Shown in pieces: positions 8,794 through 49,263 of a DNA stretch of 64,000 nt. The position numbers were made by a program, and so were the translations under genes. Each line of letters starts with the position of its first letter. Position 1 is the stretch's first letter. The stretch is from Pseudomonadota bacterium (lineage in GTDB: Bacteria > Pseudomonadota > Alphaproteobacteria > Rhodospirillales > Magnetospirillaceae): NCBI GenBank assembly GCA_021793155.1, contig JAJYTF010000017.1, forward strand, positions 1-64,000, in the 5' to 3' direction. The notes beneath the pieces are model-generated. The model saw nothing but the letters and a program-made list of their open reading frames with translations. It was not told the origin of the DNA and did not search any database.

Positions 8794-9351
8794 ATGAGCA
8801 AGCCGGTGGTTGCCCGGAAAAGTTCGTTTATCGCCATTCTGGCCGCGGTCCTGGCGCTCTCCGGGTGCAGCATTTTCGAGCGGGACGACGATCAACCCCC
8901 TTGCCCGAGAGTCTCGATCCTCGCCGATACCGCCAAGCTGGTGCGGTTCCAGCCTGGCGAAGGGCGCGACGTCACCGATGTCGAAACGCAGGCCGAACTG
9001 ACCGGCTATCACGGCAGCTGCCATTACGACAAATCCAAGAAGGTGATGAACGTCTCGCTCGAGGTCGGCATCGATGTCGAGCGAGGCCCGGCGGCTCAGG
9101 GGCGCACGGCGAACCTGTCCTATTTCGTGGCGATTCCCGCCTTCTACCCCGATCCCAAGGCTCACGCGGTCATGCCAGTGGCGGTCTCCTTCCCCGTCAA
9201 CGCACAGGGTGTGCGTTACACCGACACCGACCTGCAGATCTTCATGCCTATTCCCGTGGTCAAGGACATGCCCAAATACGAAATCTTCCTGGGACTGCAG
9301 TTGACCCCGGAGGAACTGGAATACAATCGTAAGCACCACGGCGGCATCTGA
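8794..9351 (+). CDS. Putative lipoprotein of unknown function
   Basis: The 185-residue product starts with a signal sequence and lipobox AVLALSGCS (Cys about residue 25), so it should be lipid-anchored. The mature part has no motif I recognise; it is rich in beta-type segments ([30 protein letters not shown]). ATG 8794 follows GGAAAAAGG. It is divergent from ispH with a 120-bp gap, and 144 bp before the long hairpin upstream of gcvT. Confidence 0.75.
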
Positions 9352-42136: not shown

Positions 42137-42568
42137 CTAACGGATCACCGCGAAATCGCGCAGCACGCCGACTTCTTCCTGCGTCTGCTGCAGGCGGAAG
42201 CCCACCGCGTCACCGATCGAGACGATGCCCACCAGATCGCCGTCCTCGATGACCGGAAGGTGGCGCATGCGCCGGTGGGTCATCACTTCCAGGATCTCCT
42301 TGACGGAGTCGCTCAACGTGCAGGTCACCGGCGGGCTCGACATGATATTGCGTGCCGGCATGTCGAGCGCGCCCCTGCCGTAGTCGGCAAGCGCCTTGAC
42401 GATGTCTCGTTCCGAGACCACGCCAACGACATGCCCCTTGCTGTCGCAGACCACCGCGACGCCGACCTTCTTGACGGCCAGCAGGGTTGCGGTTTCGGCC
42501 AGAGAATGCTCCGGGCGCACGGTATAGACGTTGCTGCCCTTCTTTTTCAGGATCAGTTCGACGGACAT
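42137..42568 (-). CDS. CBS-domain-pair protein
   Basis: The 143-residue protein is two CBS domains: VYTVRPEHSLAETATLLAVK with GVVSERDIVKAL, and PPVTCTLSDSVKEILEVMTH with RHLPVIEDGDLVGIVSIGD. CBS pairs bind adenosyl ligands and act as energy or redox sensors; no attached output domain is present. A structured repeat abuts its stop codon. Confidence 0.9.
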   Translation of the reverse strand: MSVELILKKKGSNVYTVRPEHSLAETATLLAVKKVGVAVVCDSKGHVVGVVSERDIVKALADYGRGALDMPARNIMSSPPVTCTLSDSVKEILEVMTHRRMRHLPVIEDGDLVGIVSIGDAVGFRLQQTQEEVGVLRDFAVIR

Positions 42569-42730: not shown

Positions 42731-43162
42731 TTACCGAGGTCCGACGGAAGTGCCGGCGGTTGTGTATTGCTGGTCTTCATACAGAATGTGGTCTTTCCAC
42801 CATGATGCGAGAAACGTCGACACTTCGGCGCCAATCACGCGCTTTCCCGACCTGCGGAAGTCATTGAGAAATTGCTGGGCCTTTTCCATGAACTCGTCGT
42901 GCAGCGCCTTGTGCTCGGCCAGACGTTCGAAACCGATCCTTCGCATGTATGACTCTTCATTATGGAAGTGCTTTACCGAAAATGCGATCATGGATGACAA
43001 TAAATCTTCTATGTTGTCACTGTTCATGGCCGTGCTGTTGGCGTAGATCGTGTTTATGAAATGGAGTAACTGTTTGTGGTCTTTGTCGAGTTGAGGGACG
43101 CCTACGCTGAAGTCCTGCGACCAAGAAATGATAAGGGGCCTCTTCATTATTTCGCTTTCCAT
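42731..43162 (-). CDS. Bacteriohemerythrin
   Basis: The 143-residue protein has the diiron ligand set of hemerythrins: H in LDKDHKQLL, HFHNEES (HxxxE), EHKALHDEF (HxxxH) and WKDHILYED (HxxxxD). It binds O2 in the cytoplasm for storage, delivery or sensing. Start choice is open between ATG 43162 and ATG 43147 (MKRPLIISWSQDF). The upstream region is AT-rich. Confidence 0.93.
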   Translation of the reverse strand: MESEIMKRPLIISWSQDFSVGVPQLDKDHKQLLHFINTIYANSTAMNSDNIEDLLSSMIAFSVKHFHNEESYMRRIGFERLAEHKALHDEFMEKAQQFLNDFRRSGKRVIGAEVSTFLASWWKDHILYEDQQYTTAGTSVGPR

Positions 43163-43333
43163 CCCTTGAGCGCATTGCCGTGGCGAAGGTTTTGAACATT
43201 GTAACAAATCGCGCCGCGGCGACCATCCTCAAATGAGGATGGAGCGTCTGCCGCGGTGGGTGGGAGACATGCAGGCCAGGCCTCCCGCAGGGGTGCCGCG
43301 GGAGGCCTGGATCAGGTGGGGATCATGTGCCGG

Positions 43334-43720
43334 TCAGTTGTTCCGGGCGCCCTCGTGGATCCAACTACGGATCAGGTCGCGATCACAAGTCGTCAGCCGC
43401 TTCTTGCCGTGAGGCATCTGCAGGCTTTTGTCGGCTCGACCGTCGAGAAGCACCAGCAGATTGCTGGTTTGCGTGTCCCCCGGAACGACGATGGGGCCGA
43501 ATTTCGTGCCTTTCATCAGGCCTTCATAGCTGCGCAGGTCGAGGCCGCTTTTCTCATAGCCGTCGCCACCGGGGGCGTGGCAGCCAGCGCAGTGTGCTTG
43601 CAGGATGGGGAAAACGTCTTCTTGAAAGCTGACGTTCGTAGGCTTTTGTGGAGATTTCGCCGCCGCTGTGGCGGTCAAGGCGGCCCCCAGCAGCAATGCT
43701 GGTAGAATCATTTTAAGCAT
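43334..43720 (-). CDS. Secreted monohaem cytochrome c
   Basis: The 128-residue protein has a signal peptide (LPALLLGAALTATAAA), one haem site AHCAGCHAPG, and a probable axial Met in LQMPHGKKRL. The C-terminal TTCDRDLIRSWIHEGA pattern is found in planctomycete-type/cytochrome-c-like domains. It should carry electrons in the periplasm. Two direct copies of ATTAGCAA (43774-43781, 43803-43810) lie in its upstream region. Confidence 0.85.
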   Translation of the reverse strand: MLKMILPALLLGAALTATAAAKSPQKPTNVSFQEDVFPILQAHCAGCHAPGGDGYEKSGLDLRSYEGLMKGTKFGPIVVPGDTQTSNLLVLLDGRADKSLQMPHGKKRLTTCDRDLIRSWIHEGARNN

Positions 43721-43829: not shown

Positions 43830-45179
43830 TTAACGGCGAGGAATGCGGATGGTGGCGGCCAAGCCGCCTAGATCGGACCGGGAAAAGGCCAACTCGCCAC
43901 CGTTGACCTCGACCAGATCATCGACGATGGACAAGCCGAGCCCCCAGCCGGGGGCCATTTCGTCGAGGCGCTTGCCCCTGCGTGACGCCTGGGCGGCCTG
44001 CTCGGGCGACAGGCCGGGGCCGTCGTCCTCGACAAGGATGACCAGTTCCTCGCGGTCCTCCCGCGCTGCCACACGCACCCGGGAAGCCGCCCATTTACAG
44101 GCGTTTTCCATCAGATTGCCGAGAATTTCCTCGAGATCCTCGCGGTGGCCGCGAAAGGCGGCGTCCTCGCGGATGTCGAGGGTGAACGACAGATGGCGCT
44201 CGGCGAAGACCCGAGAGAGGACGGCGACCATGTTCTCGGCCACCTGGCTCACGCCCACCTTGACGCCCAGCACCCGGCCCGCCCCGGCGACGGCCGAGGC
44301 GCGGCCCAGATGGTGCTCGACCAGGCGCCGCATCACCTGCAGTTGCTCGCGGATCACCTTGCGGTCGCCGCCTTCGTCCATTTCCGCGCCGATTACCGCC
44401 AGCGGCGTCTTCAGGCCGTGAGCCAGGTTGCCCACATGGGTGCGCGCTCGCTCGATCAGTTCGGCATCCTTGTCGAGAACCCCGTTCATTGCCTCGGCCA
44501 GCGGCGCTACCTCTCGCGGGTAGCGGCCGGCGAGGCGCGGCCGGGCGCCCTCGCGGACGGCCTTCAGGTCGGCGGCCATCGCCCGCAAGGGGCGCAGGCC
44601 GAAGCGGACCTGGATGATGATCGCCACCGCCAGCCCGGCGCCGAGAAGGCCCAGCGCCGCGGCCAGCAGCAGGTCGAATTGCCGCACGCCGTTGCTGACT
44701 TCGCGCATGTCGGCGGCGATGGTCACGTGGACCGGGCCGTCGATCCCGGGAAATTGAAGGTCACGCTCGGCCACCAGCAGCGGTTCGCCCTTCGGCCCTT
44801 CCGCCCGGCCGGTGTGGAGCTCGGCGCTGCCGGGCATCGGCGTGATCACCGCGTCCCACAGCGAGCGCGAGCGGAGCTGGCGGCCCGAGGGTTCGGTCAC
44901 CTGCCAGTACCAGCCCGAATAGATCTGGTCGAAGCGGGGGTCGCCCAGCGGGCGCAGCAGGGCGATCCTGCCGTCGGGGCCGATTTCGGTGGCGGCAATC
45001 ATGGCGCGCAGCATGGCGTCCAGGCGGTGGCTGAACTCGTGCTCGACGTTGGCCCGGAAGGCCATGGCAAGGACGCCGCCGCCAGCGGCCAGCATCAGCA
45101 CCACCCAGACCAGGGCCCCTGCCACCAGCCGGACGGAAAGGGACACCGCCGGCCGTTCGGGATCATCCGCCGGGGCCAT
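43830..45179 (-). CDS. Sensor histidine kinase (PhoQ-like)
   Basis: The 449-residue protein has two membrane helices (about 15-40 and 165-190) flanking a periplasmic sensor of about 125 residues, a HAMP-like segment (RFGLRPLRAMAADLKAVREG), HisKA with GNLAHGLKTPLAVIGAEMDE (phospho-His) and HATPase_c (NLMENACKWA; EDDGPGL; GWGLGLSIVDDL). ATG 45179 overlaps the regulator's stop by one base (TGATG). Partner of the OmpR-type regulator next to it. Confidence 0.92.
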   Translation of the reverse strand: MAPADDPERPAVSLSVRLVAGALVWVVLMLAAGGGVLAMAFRANVEHEFSHRLDAMLRAMIAATEIGPDGRIALLRPLGDPRFDQIYSGWYWQVTEPSGRQLRSRSLWDAVITPMPGSAELHTGRAEGPKGEPLLVAERDLQFPGIDGPVHVTIAADMREVSNGVRQFDLLLAAALGLLGAGLAVAIIIQVRFGLRPLRAMAADLKAVREGARPRLAGRYPREVAPLAEAMNGVLDKDAELIERARTHVGNLAHGLKTPLAVIGAEMDEGGDRKVIREQLQVMRRLVEHHLGRASAVAGAGRVLGVKVGVSQVAENMVAVLSRVFAERHLSFTLDIREDAAFRGHREDLEEILGNLMENACKWAASRVRVAAREDREELVILVEDDGPGLSPEQAAQASRRGKRLDEMAPGWGLGLSIVDDLVEVNGGELAFSRSDLGGLAATIRIPRR

Positions 45180-45844
45180 CAGTCCTCCGGTTTGACCAGG
45201 ATGTAGCCTTGCCCGCGGACGGTCTGGATCAGGCCTGCCCCGACCTTCTTGCGGACCCGCCCAAGCAGAACCTCGAGCGAGTTGGAGTCCGAATCGAAAT
45301 ATCGATCGTAGACATGCTCCATCAATTCGGTACGGCTGACGATTCGGCCCGGATGGTGGATCAGATAGGACAGAATGCGGAATTCCTGGGCGGTAAGTTG
45401 GACCGGCATGCCGTCCAGCCTGACCCGTCCGGTGTTGGTGTCGAGGGTCAAGGGACCGCAAACCAGTTCCGGCTGGGCATGGCCGGAAGCACGGCGGATC
45501 AGTGCCCGCAGGCGGTAGACGACTTCTTCCATCTCGAATGGCTTGGTCACGTAATCGTCGGCGCCGGCATTGAAGCCGGCCATCTTTTCCGACCATCGGC
45601 TACGCGCCGTCAGGATCAGTACCGGCATGGTGCGGCCGGCCTCGCGCCAGCGCTGCAGCACGGTCACGCCGTCGATCTTCGGCAGGCCAAGGTCGAGCAC
45701 GACCGCGTCATAGGGTTCGGTGTCGCCCAGATGCCAGCCGTCCTCGCCGTCATAGGCGACGTCGACGGCGAAACCGGCAGCCTCCAGCACCTGCTGGAGG
45801 CGGAAGGCCAAGGCCGGCTCGTCCTCGACCACCAGGGCCCTCAC
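45179..45844 (-). CDS. OmpR/PhoP-family response regulator
   Basis: The 221-residue protein has an intact receiver (VVEDEPALAF; phospho-Asp in AVVLDLGLPKIDG; Lys in YVTKPFEMEE) and a winged-helix output domain ending TVRGQGYILVKPED. It sits between the PepSY gene (4-base overlap) and the kinase gene. A TCAGGT-N5-TCAGGT direct repeat in the divergent promoter (46185-46201) has the 11-bp period such regulators bind. Confidence 0.93.
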   Translation of the reverse strand: MRALVVEDEPALAFRLQQVLEAAGFAVDVAYDGEDGWHLGDTEPYDAVVLDLGLPKIDGVTVLQRWREAGRTMPVLILTARSRWSEKMAGFNAGADDYVTKPFEMEEVVYRLRALIRRASGHAQPELVCGPLTLDTNTGRVRLDGMPVQLTAQEFRILSYLIHHPGRIVSRTELMEHVYDRYFDSDSNSLEVLLGRVRKKVGAGLIQTVRGQGYILVKPED

Positions 45845-46137
45845 CGGTGAATCTCCCGGCTTTTCAACAGTTCCCCCGAGCGCGCGTCATACAGCAGCTT
45901 CATCACGCGACCATCCCCGGTCAGCAACCGGATCTCGTACACCAGGGTGCCGGCGTCGCCTTCCAGCTCTGCTTCGATGAGCTGTCCCGGACAGGCGGCC
46001 TCGGCCCGGTTGAGGATTTCTCTAAGGGGCAGAATGCGCCCTTCGGCGACGGCGCGCAACGCACGGTCTTGATCCTCGTCGGCGAAGGCCGGAGCACAAA
46101 CCGACAGGAGGGCGGCGGCGCACAGGGCATATTTCAT
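45841..46137 (-). CDS. PepSY-domain periplasmic protein
   Basis: The 98-residue protein has a signal peptide (LCAAALLSVCAPAFA) and one PepSY domain (LREILNRAEAACPGQLIEAE through YEIRLLTGDGRVMKLLYDAR). PepSY proteins near two-component systems are thought to modulate the sensor or a protease. Its stop overlaps the regulator's ATG, so the three genes form one operon. Confidence 0.88.
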   Translation of the reverse strand: MKYALCAAALLSVCAPAFADEDQDRALRAVAEGRILPLREILNRAEAACPGQLIEAELEGDAGTLVYEIRLLTGDGRVMKLLYDARSGELLKSREIHR

Positions 46138-46184
46138 GCTGGCAGTCTAATCGGCCCAGCCTGAATGCAGCATGAACCCGTCGG

Positions 46185-46201
46185 TCAGGTCGCGTTCAGG
46201 T
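46185..46201. promoter_or_regulatory. Direct-repeat operator candidate in a divergent promoter
   Basis: TCAGGT (46185-46190) and TCAGGT (46196-46201) are separated by five bases, an 11-bp period typical of OmpR/PhoB winged-helix dimers. TGAA at 46162 and 46173 repeats the same period just upstream. It lies between the PepSY-regulator-kinase operon (starts 46137) and the 46247 gene. Confidence 0.5.
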
Positions 46202-46246
46202 TGGGGCCGATAAGGTCTGCGCCAACGCAATTCCACGGAGGGCAAG

Positions 46247-46519
46247 ATGCTTGGCAGAACATTGGTCTACGGCCTGATGGCGGCAGTGCTGATCGGCTCG
46301 GCGGCAGCCGTCTACGCAGACGTGAAGGATAACGGAAATCGTCCGGCGGAAATGCCGCCGTCAACCGCTGCCGGCCAGCCGGCGGCCACCGGCGGCGACG
46401 GATATATCCGGCCCACGGCCGACCGCCCGGCCCCGGCCGTCGACGAAACGAAGCGCTCCGAGCGCCAGGGTGAAAGCGCCGAGCGCCACCGGCGCGGCCA
46501 CGACGACGACGACGACTAG
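46247..46519 (+). CDS. Small secreted protein with acidic His/Asp tail
   Basis: The 90-residue protein has an N-terminal signal (TLVYGLMAAVLIGSAAAVYA), a Pro/Ala-rich low-complexity body and the C-terminal tail RHRRGHDDDDD, which could bind metal. GGAGG precedes ATG 46247. It is driven from the divergent promoter with the OmpR-type direct repeat, so it is a likely target of that regulator. No family recognised. Confidence 0.7.
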   Translation: MLGRTLVYGLMAAVLIGSAAAVYADVKDNGNRPAEMPPSTAAGQPAATGGDGYIRPTADRPAPAVDETKRSERQGESAERHRRGHDDDDD

Positions 46520-46556
46520 AGCCAAAAGCATTCAGGTGAAGCCACTTTGTTCTGGA

Positions 46557-46606
46557 GGCCGTTGAGGCCGAGGCTAGGCGAACCGCAGGTTTGCACCCGG
46601 CGAGGG
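46557..46606 (+). repeat. Diverged relative (copy C) of the structured repeat
   Basis: GGCCGTTGAGGCCG (46557-46570) and CCCGGCGAGGG (46596-46606) are identical to the two ends of the core of copy A, at nearly the same spacing, while the middle differs. The 183-bp gap 46520-46702 holds this element and an outer TTCAGG/CCTGAA dyad, but no gene. Confidence 0.55.
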
Positions 46607-46702
46607 ACATAGGGAAGCTCTTTCAGCCTGAAAAACCTCGAGACGGGTGCGCCGGAGCGCGTGCGGCTCGACAACAACCATTGATCGGAGCAAGGGGGTC
46701 AA

Positions 46703-47206
46703 ATGTCCGCCAGGGGTCACCACGCGTTGCTTAAGATTTGGCATGCCTGGATCGCCGGGGCGTTTCTCGTCGCCTATGTGACGGCGGACGAGGACACCTA
46801 TGCGATGCACCTGTTCGCCGGCTATGCGGTGCTCGCCGCCGTTGCCGCGCGCCTGCTGGCCGGTGCCCTTGCCCCGGCCTCAAATCCGCTGCGCCTGCCG
46901 CGGCCAAGTCTGCGGGCGGCCCTGTCCTGGTTGGCCGAGCGCCGGGGGCGCCACCCGCTGTTCGCGTGGTTCGCCGCCGTGCTGCCTACGATCGTCGGCA
47001 TTTCCGCTGTCTCCGGCGCGTTGGCCGACGGCACCCCCTGGCTGGAAAGTCCGCACGAGGCGGTATCCGAAGCGGCCCTGTGGGTGATTTTCGGCCATAT
47101 CGCCTTCGTTTCCGCCATCTATGGCGGCAGACGCCTGTGGCGGCGGCTGAGCGCTGCATTGTCCGGCAGCCGTTCGACCTTTCGTTCCAAGGAGCAATCC
47201 CCATGA
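46703..47206 (+). CDS. Cytochrome b561-type membrane protein of the SHP cluster
   Basis: The 167-residue protein has four likely membrane helices and paired His residues (KIWHAWIAG; AMHLFAGY; SPHEAVSEAALWVIFGHIAF) typical of the bacterial dihaem b561/Ni-Fe hydrogenase b family. It should accept electrons from the quinone pool and reduce the periplasmic cytochromes encoded next. Its TGA overlaps the next ATG (ATGA). Confidence 0.87.
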   Translation: MSARGHHALLKIWHAWIAGAFLVAYVTADEDTYAMHLFAGYAVLAAVAARLLAGALAPASNPLRLPRPSLRAALSWLAERRGRHPLFAWFAAVLPTIVGISAVSGALADGTPWLESPHEAVSEAALWVIFGHIAFVSAIYGGRRLWRRLSAALSGSRSTFRSKEQSP

Positions 47207-47622
47207 TCCGTTCTGTCCTGATCGCCGCGACGCTGGCGGCTGTGCCGTTTGCGGCGATGGCCGGCGCCCCTCGGCGCGACGCCATCCTGTCCGACTACGC
47301 CACTCAGGCCAGTCAGGCGAACCCCGGTTTCTCCGGGTTTTCCGCCCAGCGCGGCGAGCTTCTGTTTCGGACTCGCTGGGCCGGCGGCGACGAACGGACG
47401 CCGTCCTGCACCGCCTGCCATACCGACCGCCCGCAGGGGCCGGGCCGCAACGCCAAGACCGGACGCCCCATCGAGCCGGTGGCGGTGTCGGTCAATCCTA
47501 AGCGCTTCACCGACATGGCCGAGGTGGAGAAGCATTTCTCCCGCGACTGCAAGAGCGTGCTGGGACGGCCCTGCACGCCGCTCGAAAAGGGCGACTACGT
47601 CACCTTCATGGCGGGGCAGTGA
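47203..47622 (+). CDS. Sphaeroides haem protein-type cytochrome c (SHP, DUF1924)
   Basis: The 139-residue protein has a signal peptide ending AAMAGAP, one haem site PSCTACHTDRP, and the DUF1924 features DYATQASQANPGFSGFSAQR, PVAVSVNPKRFTD and a second Cys pair (RDCKSVLGRPC) that can form a disulfide. SHP is a high-spin cytochrome whose Asn haem ligand is displaced on reduction, letting it bind O2 or NO. The b561-SHP-dihaem cytochrome order supports the call. Confidence 0.88.
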   Translation: MIRSVLIAATLAAVPFAAMAGAPRRDAILSDYATQASQANPGFSGFSAQRGELLFRTRWAGGDERTPSCTACHTDRPQGPGRNAKTGRPIEPVAVSVNPKRFTDMAEVEKHFSRDCKSVLGRPCTPLEKGDYVTFMAGQ

Positions 47623-47623
47623 G

Positions 47624-48091
47624 ATGCGCTCGAAGTTGCCGCTGGCCGCAGCCATTCTGCTGTTCGCCGCTCCGCTGCGTGCCGAGGAGAAATCGGTGCC
47701 GGCAATCGCCGATCCGCTGGTCAGGCAGGAATGCGGATCCTGTCACATGGCCTTCCAGCCGGTGTTTCTGCCGGCCCGTTCGTGGAATCGCATCATGGAC
47801 GAACTGGCCAATCATTTCGGCGAGGACGCCAGCCTGCCGCCGGACAAGGCACAACGCATCCGCGCCTACCTGACCGCCAATGCCGGGGACGCGGCCGGCG
47901 GCGGGTGGGCGCGGCGCTATATGCGCTGGGTGGCCGAGAGCGGAACCCCCCTGCGGATCACTGCGAACCCCGCCTTCGAGCGCAAGCACCGCTTACCCGA
48001 CGCCGTGTGGAAGGATCCCAAGGTGGTGACCAAGTCCAATTGTCCGGCCTGCCATACCCAGGCCGAGAAGGGATGGTTCGACGATGACTGA
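47624..48091 (+). CDS. Dihaem cytochrome c (DHC type)
   Basis: The 155-residue protein has a signal peptide, two haem sites (RQECGSCHMAF about 37 and SNCPACHTQAEKGWF near the C terminus) and RYMRWVAESGTPLRITANP between. In other proteobacteria DHC reduces SHP. ATG 47624 lies two bases after the SHP stop. Confidence 0.88.
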   Translation: MRSKLPLAAAILLFAAPLRAEEKSVPAIADPLVRQECGSCHMAFQPVFLPARSWNRIMDELANHFGEDASLPPDKAQRIRAYLTANAGDAAGGGWARRYMRWVAESGTPLRITANPAFERKHRLPDAVWKDPKVVTKSNCPACHTQAEKGWFDDD

Positions 48092-48234: not shown

Positions 48235-49263
48235 ATGCGTCCAATCATCCTTGCGGCCGCCGCCCTGGTCGCCGCCAGTAGCGCCGTGCATGCGGCAGAC
48301 GATCTGATGAAGCGGTCGACCGAACTGTTCGCCCCGATCGCCGGCCCCGGCCCGGAAGCCAAGGCGGCCAGCCGGACCATGATCGAACTGGGCAAGAGCC
48401 TTTATTTCGATCCGCGCGTCTCGGCCAGCGGGCTGATCAGCTGCAACAGCTGCCACAATGTGGGAGGGGGCGGCGTCGACGGCATGGAGACCTCGGTCGG
48501 CCATGCCTGGGCCAAAGGGCCGCGCAACGCCCCCACCGTCCTCAACGCCACCTTCAATGCCAGCCAGTTCTGGGACGGCCGTGCGCCGAACCTGAAGGAG
48601 CAGGCCAAGGGTCCGGTCCAGGCCGGGGTCGAGATGAACAACACTCCCGACCGTGTCGAGGCGACGCTGAAGAGCATGCCGGCCTATGTGGCCCAATTCG
48701 CCAAGGCCTTCCCCAAAGAAAAGCAGCCGGTGACCTTCGACAACATGGCCACCGCCATCGCTGCCTTCGAAGCCACTCTGGTCACCCCCGATGCTCCCTT
48801 CGACCGCTACCTGAAGGGCGACGCCAAAGCGTTGACCGCCCAGCAGAAGAAGGGCCTGGCGACATTCATCGACAGCGGCTGCGCCAGCTGCCATTCGGGC
48901 GTCAACCTGGGCGGCGGCAGCTTCCAGAAGTTCGGTGTGGCGGGCGACCCGCCCGAGGCCGCGCGCCCCGGCGCCGACAAAGGCCGCGAGAAGGTGACCT
49001 CGAATCCCGACGATGCTTTCGTCTTCCGCGTGCCGACGCTGCGCAACGTCGCCCTCACCGCGCCCTATTTCCATTCGGGCAAGATTCGCTCGCTGGACCA
49101 GGCGGTGCGCATCATGGCCGAGTCCCAACTGGGCAAGACGCTGTCGGATGCCGAAGCCGCCGACGTGGTCGCGTTCCTCGACAGCCTGACCGGCCGCCAG
49201 CCGCAGGTCACCCTGCCGGTGCTGCCGCCCAGCACGGCGACGACACCGGCGCCCAGCCTGTGA
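48235..49263 (+). CDS. Dihaem cytochrome c peroxidase (CCP/MauG family)
   Basis: The 342-residue protein has a signal peptide (AAAALVAASSAVHA), haem sites ISCNSCHNVG and SGCASCHSGV, the EMNNTPDRV calcium/peroxidase loop region and FRVPTLRNVALTAPYFHSG. It reduces H2O2 in the periplasm with electrons from cytochromes c. Downstream is a long palindrome. A 143-bp gap separates it from the dihaem cytochrome, so it may be a separate transcript. Confidence 0.93.
   Translation: MRPIILAAAALVAASSAVHAADDLMKRSTELFAPIAGPGPEAKAASRTMIELGKSLYFDPRVSASGLISCNSCHNVGGGGVDGMETSVGHAWAKGPRNAPTVLNATFNASQFWDGRAPNLKEQAKGPVQAGVEMNNTPDRVEATLKSMPAYVAQFAKAFPKEKQPVTFDNMATAIAAFEATLVTPDAPFDRYLKGDAKALTAQQKKGLATFIDSGCASCHSGVNLGGGSFQKFGVAGDPPEAARPGADKGREKVTSNPDDAFVFRVPTLRNVALTAPYFHSGKIRSLDQAVRIMAESQLGKTLSDAEAADVVAFLDSLTGRQPQVTLPVLPPSTATTPAPSL

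Follow-up and report, generated by a model that had tools for sequence, protein, structure and literature searches.

The c-type cytochrome SHP (DUF1924) is known from operons that also encode a membrane cytochrome (CytB) and the soluble dihaem cytochrome DHC, and three types of sensor kinase accompany these operons (Meyer, Kyndt, and Cusanovich 2010; PMC2909971). The passages of that article cited here describe a divergent arrangement in Rhodospirillum rubrum and R. centenum, in which Orf1, a response regulator (RR), and a kinase of type SK1, recognised by variants of SGVYWQ and RSRSLWD, face Orf1-CytB-SHP-DHC. We analysed a related locus in a window of 64,000 nucleotides (positions 1 to 64,000, forward strand, of contig JAJYTF010000017.1, assembly GCA_021793155.1, GTDB family Magnetospirillaceae). 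Here a small PepSY protein, an RR, and a sensor histidine kinase (HK; all three within 43830-46137, minus strand) diverge from a small protein, hereafter SP, a b561-type cytochrome, SHP, and DHC (46247-48091, plus strand); these genes lie where the initial annotation, made from the sequence alone, had placed them. The locus is a further member of the published SK1-type set, and its divergent layout is not new, having been published for the Rhodospirillum species (PMC2909971). What is new is a mirrored operator with outer -10-like elements, SP as a conserved helix protein coupled to b561, an SHP with a His/Asp distal pair, and a peroxidase neighbor. The gene set is thus ordinary, and the regulatory anatomy is better than ordinary, with one conserved small protein that has no name. 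We consider it probable that a dedicated sensor system resembling DbfQRS of Vibrio cholerae activates both itself and a shunt carrying electrons from quinol to the periplasm.

The shared promoter region had been noted for a repeat, TCAGGT-N5-TCAGGT, as a likely regulator site. The idea of a site there is supported, and the repeat has a single exact copy in the window (46185-46201), but it is only the right half of a mirrored operator of 37 bp (46162-46198). The operator consensus, TGAAC-N6-TGAAC-N6-GTCAS-N6-GTTCA, consists of two opposed direct repeats with an 11-bp period, giving four half-sites; the window form is TGAAT-N6-TGAAC-N6-GTCA-N6-GTTCA. At 46162 the full operator is matched without mismatch, while the nearest approach in 12 Markov shuffles of the window has four mismatches; in the whole genome, at up to two mismatches, this is the one match, and a reversed control pattern gives none. 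Each end of the operator is flanked, at a distance of 12 bp, by a -10-like element, TAGACT to the left (46144-46149, minus strand) and TAAGGT to the right (46211-46216, plus strand), the fixed spacing between direct repeat and -10 that marks PhoB-type sites. As the leftward element stands about 6 nt before the PepSY ATG, the mRNA of the PepSY operon is probably leaderless. A scan for sigma-70 consensus promoters between 46100 and 49600 found none; an operator acting in place of the -35 element would lead one to expect this, but by itself it is no support.

Promoters of the PhoB/PmrA type carry direct repeats with an 11-bp period, in which a box near the -10 element replaces the -35. The window promoter resembles them in its period and its -10-proximal box and differs from them in the sequence of its half-sites and in being mirrored for two promoters. 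One stretch of DNA very probably switches on both the haem-protein set and the sensor system that controls it. A search of the window genome for a wider regulon, using a half-box plus a -10 element, returned this promoter as its one exact match, together with three one-mismatch matches, a number equalled by the reversed control. Of the three matches, two fall within called reading frames, and the frames on either side of the third point away from it. The cited text of PMC2909971 gives no operator, and a search of the open-access literature found no paper on the operator or on SP.

Comparison with relatives ties the operator to this type of locus. All 33 b561-SHP promoters from the GTDB family that were compared by gap alignment and scoring have it, including five (L033, L044, L053, L056, and L061) that a first strict pattern had missed and scoring recovered; L062, L063, and L065 fall outside the 33, with no b561 found or a contig end. 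Its centre spacing is best at 6 in 28 of these loci and at 5 in the other five; all 33 places, these five included, fit the spacing-6 pattern at no more than one mismatch. For wider counts, loci from the family were combined with a named set, which was drawn by one peptide pattern and leans to Asp-type SHP; removal of identical SHP stretches left 67, and setting aside four at contig edges gave 63 distinct loci. The operator occurs at up to one mismatch in 51 of these 63, and 47 of the 51 have an adjacent two-component system (TCS). By genome, 38 of 55 in the family have an operator at up to two mismatches (reversed control, none), as do 75 of 297 in the order at up to one mismatch, not all of these before SHP.

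The promoter geometry is conserved as well. Once identical operator contexts were removed, 55 remained (46 PepSY-linked, 4 unlinked, and 5 other), among them a few second operators that do not precede SHP. The -10-like elements recur 12 bp outside both operator ends: the right one has its A in 54 and its T in 55 of the 55 contexts, and the left one, read on the plus strand, has T in 48 and A in 44, with flanks mostly below 0.5 bit. The left pattern nAnnnT is found in 41 of the 46 PepSY-linked contexts, and in 43 of the 46 the PepSY ATG lies 23-26 nt from the operator, some 6 nt beyond the left element, which again suggests a leaderless mRNA. At four loci (L036, L046, L051, and L059) SHP keeps operator and SP while the TCS is elsewhere, the kinase being kept elsewhere in the same genomes; the left -10-like element has been lost at three of them.

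Outside the class, the operator takes a one-sided form. SHP was found in 86 of 398 genomes of a phylum draw, and the best 30 of these 86 supplied the loci compared, 20 of them examined at larger size. A half-box, TTCAG-N6-TTCAG, with a -10-like element stands upstream of SHP and faces it at 15 of the 30 loci; 20 Markov-shuffled sets gave 0 or 1. PepSY and RR lie downstream of DHC in the same direction, as a single operon, in 15 of the 20 larger stretches, and 12 of these have the half-box, which is seen in none of the four larger stretches without PepSY; L282 has half-box and PepSY, and the stretch ends there. An exact RSRSLWD-type motif is present in 9 of the 20. The operator thus accompanies the PepSY TCS and takes its mirrored form in loci whose genes are divided between two operons. 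In L269, L272, and L286, all from outside the class, another half-box comes after the kinase, near 9180-9340, and in L272 and L286 a secreted-looking protein with the motif ...ASDPYVG... starts just after it.

The sensor side of the locus supports the earlier proposal that the module has its own PepSY TCS. The periplasmic domain of the window kinase carries SGWYWQ and RSRSLWD, and with Orf1 (PepSY) present the system is of the SK1 type; RSRSLWD is invariant in 30 of 30 aligned kinases, and the window genome has one kinase of this type at 1e-30. A small PepSY protein no more than four genes from an HK or RR also identifies the system as DbfQRS-like. In the part of PMC12714742 cited here, DbfQ, the PepSY protein of V. 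cholerae, is bound to the kinase DbfS and promotes its phosphatase activity, membrane damage activates the system, and positive autoregulation of DbfQRS is indicated. The window shares with DbfQRS and the neighbors of BqsRS a small PepSY protein upstream of RR and HK (PMC12714742) and, in the model proposed below, would share positive autoregulation; unlike here, the DbfQRS outputs named in those pages are biofilm, metabolism, and motility, with no mention of a cytochrome module. The kinase sensor domain was modelled with a pLDDT of 81. A sequence search of the PDB with this domain returned nothing credible, and fold comparison of the model gave weak matches, WalK first, with the PhoQ and KinD sensor domains among them.

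We propose that the kinase is restrained by the PepSY protein, seated on its periplasmic domain by analogy with DbfQ on DbfS, and that a periplasmic or envelope signal would free the kinase from it, leading to phosphorylation of the RR. RR dimers would then bind both opposed direct repeats of the predicted operator, each dimer 12 bp from a -10 element in the manner of pho-box-type activation, so that PepSY-RR-HK and SP-b561-SHP-DHC would be turned on together. The b561 protein, presumably a quinol oxidase and the entry point, would draw electrons from quinol; DHC would carry them, and the His/Asp SHP would be the periplasmic end enzyme or a carrier. The adjacent cytochrome c peroxidase may draw on the same electrons. 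SP would be a membrane-helix partner of b561, the two being produced through translational coupling.

By analogy, the kinase may respond to metal, redox state, or the envelope. When Allochromatium vinosum grows on pyrite rather than sulfide, the DUF1924 gene Alvin_0022 is upregulated (log2 7.1) along with neighboring DHC genes, b561, the regulator Alvin_0025, and RND efflux genes, according to the data cited from PMC11267869. UzcRS of Caulobacter, another alphaproteobacterial TCS, is metal-responsive; the UzcRS motif given in the cited part of PMC8963506, CATTAC-N6-TTAA, differs from the TTCAG-N6-TTCAG found here.

SP, a protein of 90 aa (46247-46519, plus strand), had been described as a metal-tail secreted protein and as a possible component of the module. 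Its tail does end in RGHDDDDD in the window, but conservation is confined to the N-terminal helix; the acidic/His tail varies between SPs or is missing, and seven SPs are only 28 aa long. Metal binding by a secreted protein is accordingly not supported as the function that SPs share, as tail length varies between a few residues and about 100 aa. The structural model has one helix (residues 2-30) followed by disorder (mean pLDDT, 63). SP has no Pfam match and no NCBIfam match near a cut-off. The differences between SP genes amount to 0.40, 0.29, and 0.55 at the three codon positions. The suggestion that SP is a component of the module is borne out by gene order, the lack of co-occurrence that would have refuted it not being observed: an SP profile recognises 57 places in 54 of the 297 order genomes, 50 of them no farther than 1.5 kb from an SHP match. 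The order has 112 genomes with SHP, and 50 of these have a recognised SP near it, so that SP is usual in the family of the window but not universal, or too short for detection elsewhere.

Seven SP places lie away from SHP, namely, second copies in G022, G023, and G266 and single places in G011, G207, G234, and (weakly) G221. SP stands beside b561-DHC in G207 and G234, where SHP is missing. The G023 copy lies between an operator (two mismatches) and a peroxidase gene; that of G022 follows a half-box (by eye) and precedes genes for an NAD/FAD/2Fe-2S reductase and a cytochrome c3-like protein; and that of G266 is opposite a PepSY TCS and is not followed by b561. Among the SP-b561 pairs measured, the SP stop lies no more than 15 nt from the b561 start in 52 of 53 (51 of 52 genes); the distance was taken to the b561 start nearest the SP stop, a choice that favors small values. 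One of the 54 SP candidates (26 aa, at the second operator of L064) is not SP-like, and that of L160 duplicates the L038 gene, with an internal codon taken as its start. A 183-bp gap between SP and b561 in the window (46520-46702) is absent from the other 52 measured pairs; as a candidate repeated element it has a single full copy in the genome, with a 27-base partial match elsewhere.

In the account of PMC2909971 cited here, the first gene on the SHP side is an orf1 homologue, whereas in the window and the relatives examined it is SP, without PepSY homology. A degenerate second Orf1/PepSY, suggested by that text, was tried as an identity for SP and rejected (hhalign probability, 1.3%). SP combines a single conserved helix with coupling to b561 and is most likely a small membrane-helix partner of that protein. 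A bolder and more doubtful extension, which we put forward only tentatively, is that SP founds a new family of single-helix partners of b561-type quinol dehydrogenases, that the Asp-ligated SHP served by it is a distinct periplasmic redox enzyme and not an oxygen carrier, and that this SHP was placed within an envelope- or metal-stress response by an operator that predated the operon split and was mirrored at the division.

The SHP of the window (47203-47622, plus strand) belongs to its family by a PF09086 score of 125.7 bits (cut-off, 22.5), a CxxCH motif, and a Cys pair after the sixth ligand. Aligned to 1dw0, the SHP of Rhodobacter sphaeroides, it has a distal His/Asp pair (EKHFSRDC) in place of the Trp84/Asn88 of oxygen-binding members, and replacements of such kind may preclude O2 binding according to the cited text of PMC2909971. 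O2 binding by the window SHP can therefore not be assumed, and the label "O2/NO-binding" from the initial annotation, a property of relatives, does not transfer to it. Asp occupies the distal side in 65 of the 67 distinct SHP loci, a set biased to that type. The two Trp/Asn loci (G013 and G014, one genus) are in genomes with no operator at up to two mismatches and no such kinase at 1e-30; no b561 was recognised beside their SHP, one of the two lying at a contig edge. With the SK1-type operons of PMC2909971, as far as the cited pages describe them, the window and its relatives share the divergent layout, the kinase motifs, the Asp distal ligand, and, elsewhere, six-gene single operons.

Behind DHC, after a gap of 143 bp, lies a gene for a dihaem cytochrome c peroxidase (48235-49263, plus strand; PF03150, 200.1 bits), which had first been left out of the module and may belong to it. 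The label MauG was replaced by cytochrome c peroxidase, since the best PDB relative, 3hq6 (E value, 2.3e-128), is far closer than the best MauG (1.1e-26). The gene has no operator copy of its own. Orthologues occur in G023 (82%), behind an operator and SP; in G016 (63%), directly after the kinase; and in G028 (81%), with no operator or SP seen within 1.5 kb. In the stretches examined, this peroxidase adjoins SHP at 2 of 36 loci that gave matches, the window included. The text of PMC2909971 cited here places a BCCP in a regulatory operon of A. vinosum. Sequence comparison suggests that the peroxidase can belong to the SHP system, with close relatives recurring beside it in a few genomes.

Other explanations differ mainly over SP and SHP. 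SP might be no more than a leader frame that sets the translation of b561, its sequence being kept by constraints on the start region; its stop codon does fall at the b561 start regardless of tail length, even at 28 aa, but the codon-position differences suggest selection on residues, and SP also precedes other redox genes, so that we find this account rather unlikely. A feedback regulator of the kinase, induced by the RR and damping the sensor through its single helix, would have a model in MgrB, which acts on PhoQ. SP is the first gene of the RR target operon, has a single N-terminal helix and a dispensable tail, and in three genomes (G023, G022, and the second copy of G266) stands behind an operator or half-box away from SHP. 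Yet SP stays with b561 when the TCS is elsewhere, it is coupled to b561 in all but one of the measured pairs, and in the 13 half-box loci examined at larger size outside the class the first frame after the half-box is b561-type by eye, not SP; we regard feedback as unlikely, slightly more so than the leader frame.

For SHP, the same family and the same operon partners would allow an O2/NO-binding oxygenase, as in R. sphaeroides. That the distal Trp/Asn is replaced by His/Asp, with Asp at nearly all loci of the biased set, that the Trp/Asn loci have no operator, no recognised b561 beside SHP, and no such kinase, and that PMC2909971, in the text cited, expects such replacements may preclude O2 binding make this improbable, to about the same degree as the leader frame. 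Finally, the repeat could be a chance or generic OmpR-type site, the TCS controlling something else. Counted loosely (up to two mismatches), the TCAGGT repeat has six sites in the window, against a shuffle mean of 2.60 (SD, 1.65), and since 7 of 100 shuffles reach six, it is not clearly above chance; the full operator, however, occurs once in the genome and accompanies the locus in other genomes and classes, which leaves this reading with very little probability.

Several observations weigh against joint control of the TCS and the SHP operon from one operator, or against the coupling of SP to b561. Twelve of the 63 loci have no operator at up to one mismatch, four of them with an adjacent TCS (L177, L184, L186, and L192), and outside the class the pattern used found no half-box in 3 of the 15 single operons that include PepSY and RR. 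The unlinked locus L059 keeps a left nAnnnT element (GATGCT), and five PepSY-linked contexts are without one. Operators stand at other genes in relatives: in G017, where SHP is missing, one separates the PepSY TCS from an SP-like frame accompanied by another b561, so that the system is not tied to SHP everywhere, and G011 (89% complete) has SP and operator-like sites, SHP and this kinase not having been found there. The window itself, with SP and b561 183 bp apart, is the sole exception to their coupling. Related sequences share ancestry, and the counts are not independent. The A. vinosum pyrite condition leaves iron, sulfur, and other metals unseparated (data cited from PMC11267869). Under a loosened, uncontrolled pattern, L177, L184, L186, and L192, among the 11 Asp-type loci without an operator, show a left-facing one-sided half-box, and L192 and L196 show the full operator form at three mismatches; the loci without the operator, like G017 and G011, speak against a universal rule.

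A defined operator that is single in the genome offers a route to the signal, as a 37-bp reporter site. In relatives it would yield a list of co-regulated genes (other b561 proteins, a peroxidase, and a cupredoxin), and it gives a way to ask whether the role of Asp-ligated SHPs differs from that of oxygen-binding ones. As a candidate component SP is concrete, being small, conserved, and unnamed in Pfam and NCBIfam. Operator matches at 0-1 mismatch in L133, L134, L135, L136, L145, and L211 adjoin genes for other b561 proteins, an NrfD/4Fe-4S set with an acidic tail, a cupredoxin adjacent to an RND pump, and an FGE-sulfatase-like protein.

The remaining gene calls are as follows from the left. 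The HK gene (43830-45179, minus strand; ATG at 45179) has a Pfam HATPase_c match of 55.2 bits. The OmpR/PmrA-type RR (45179-45844, minus strand) matches Pfam Response_reg (93.2 bits) and Trans_reg_C (80.6 bits), its receiver Asp51 being present by eye, and the PepSY protein (45841-46137, minus strand; PF03413, 46.2 bits; cut-off, 24) has a secretion signal by eye. This operon is tightly packed, the RR start lying within the PepSY stop (GTGA) and the HK start within the RR stop (ATGA). The initial identification of b561, SHP, and DHC agrees with Pfam, although b561 (46703-47206, plus strand; PF01292, 24.1 bits) stays below its cut-off of 30.1; b561 orthologues adjoining SHP in relatives are 38-70% identical. 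The SHP start overlaps the b561 end through ATGA, and DHC (47624-48091, plus strand) scores 126 bits with PF09626.

The four other genomes of the genus of the window (G004-G007) have no SHP and no operator match, so that the locus has a patchy distribution in that genus. The two window genes that immediately follow the kinase on its strand encode a bacteriohaemerythrin (42731-43207; NCBIfam, 111.8 bits) and a small cytochrome with a PSCyt1 domain (43334-43720); the sole homologue of these neighbors beside other SHP loci is a weak haemerythrin match in L045. A similar small protein, CBS-like by eye, is encoded at 42137-42568 of the window and at 4970-5410 of L145, near the second operator-b561 pair of G016.

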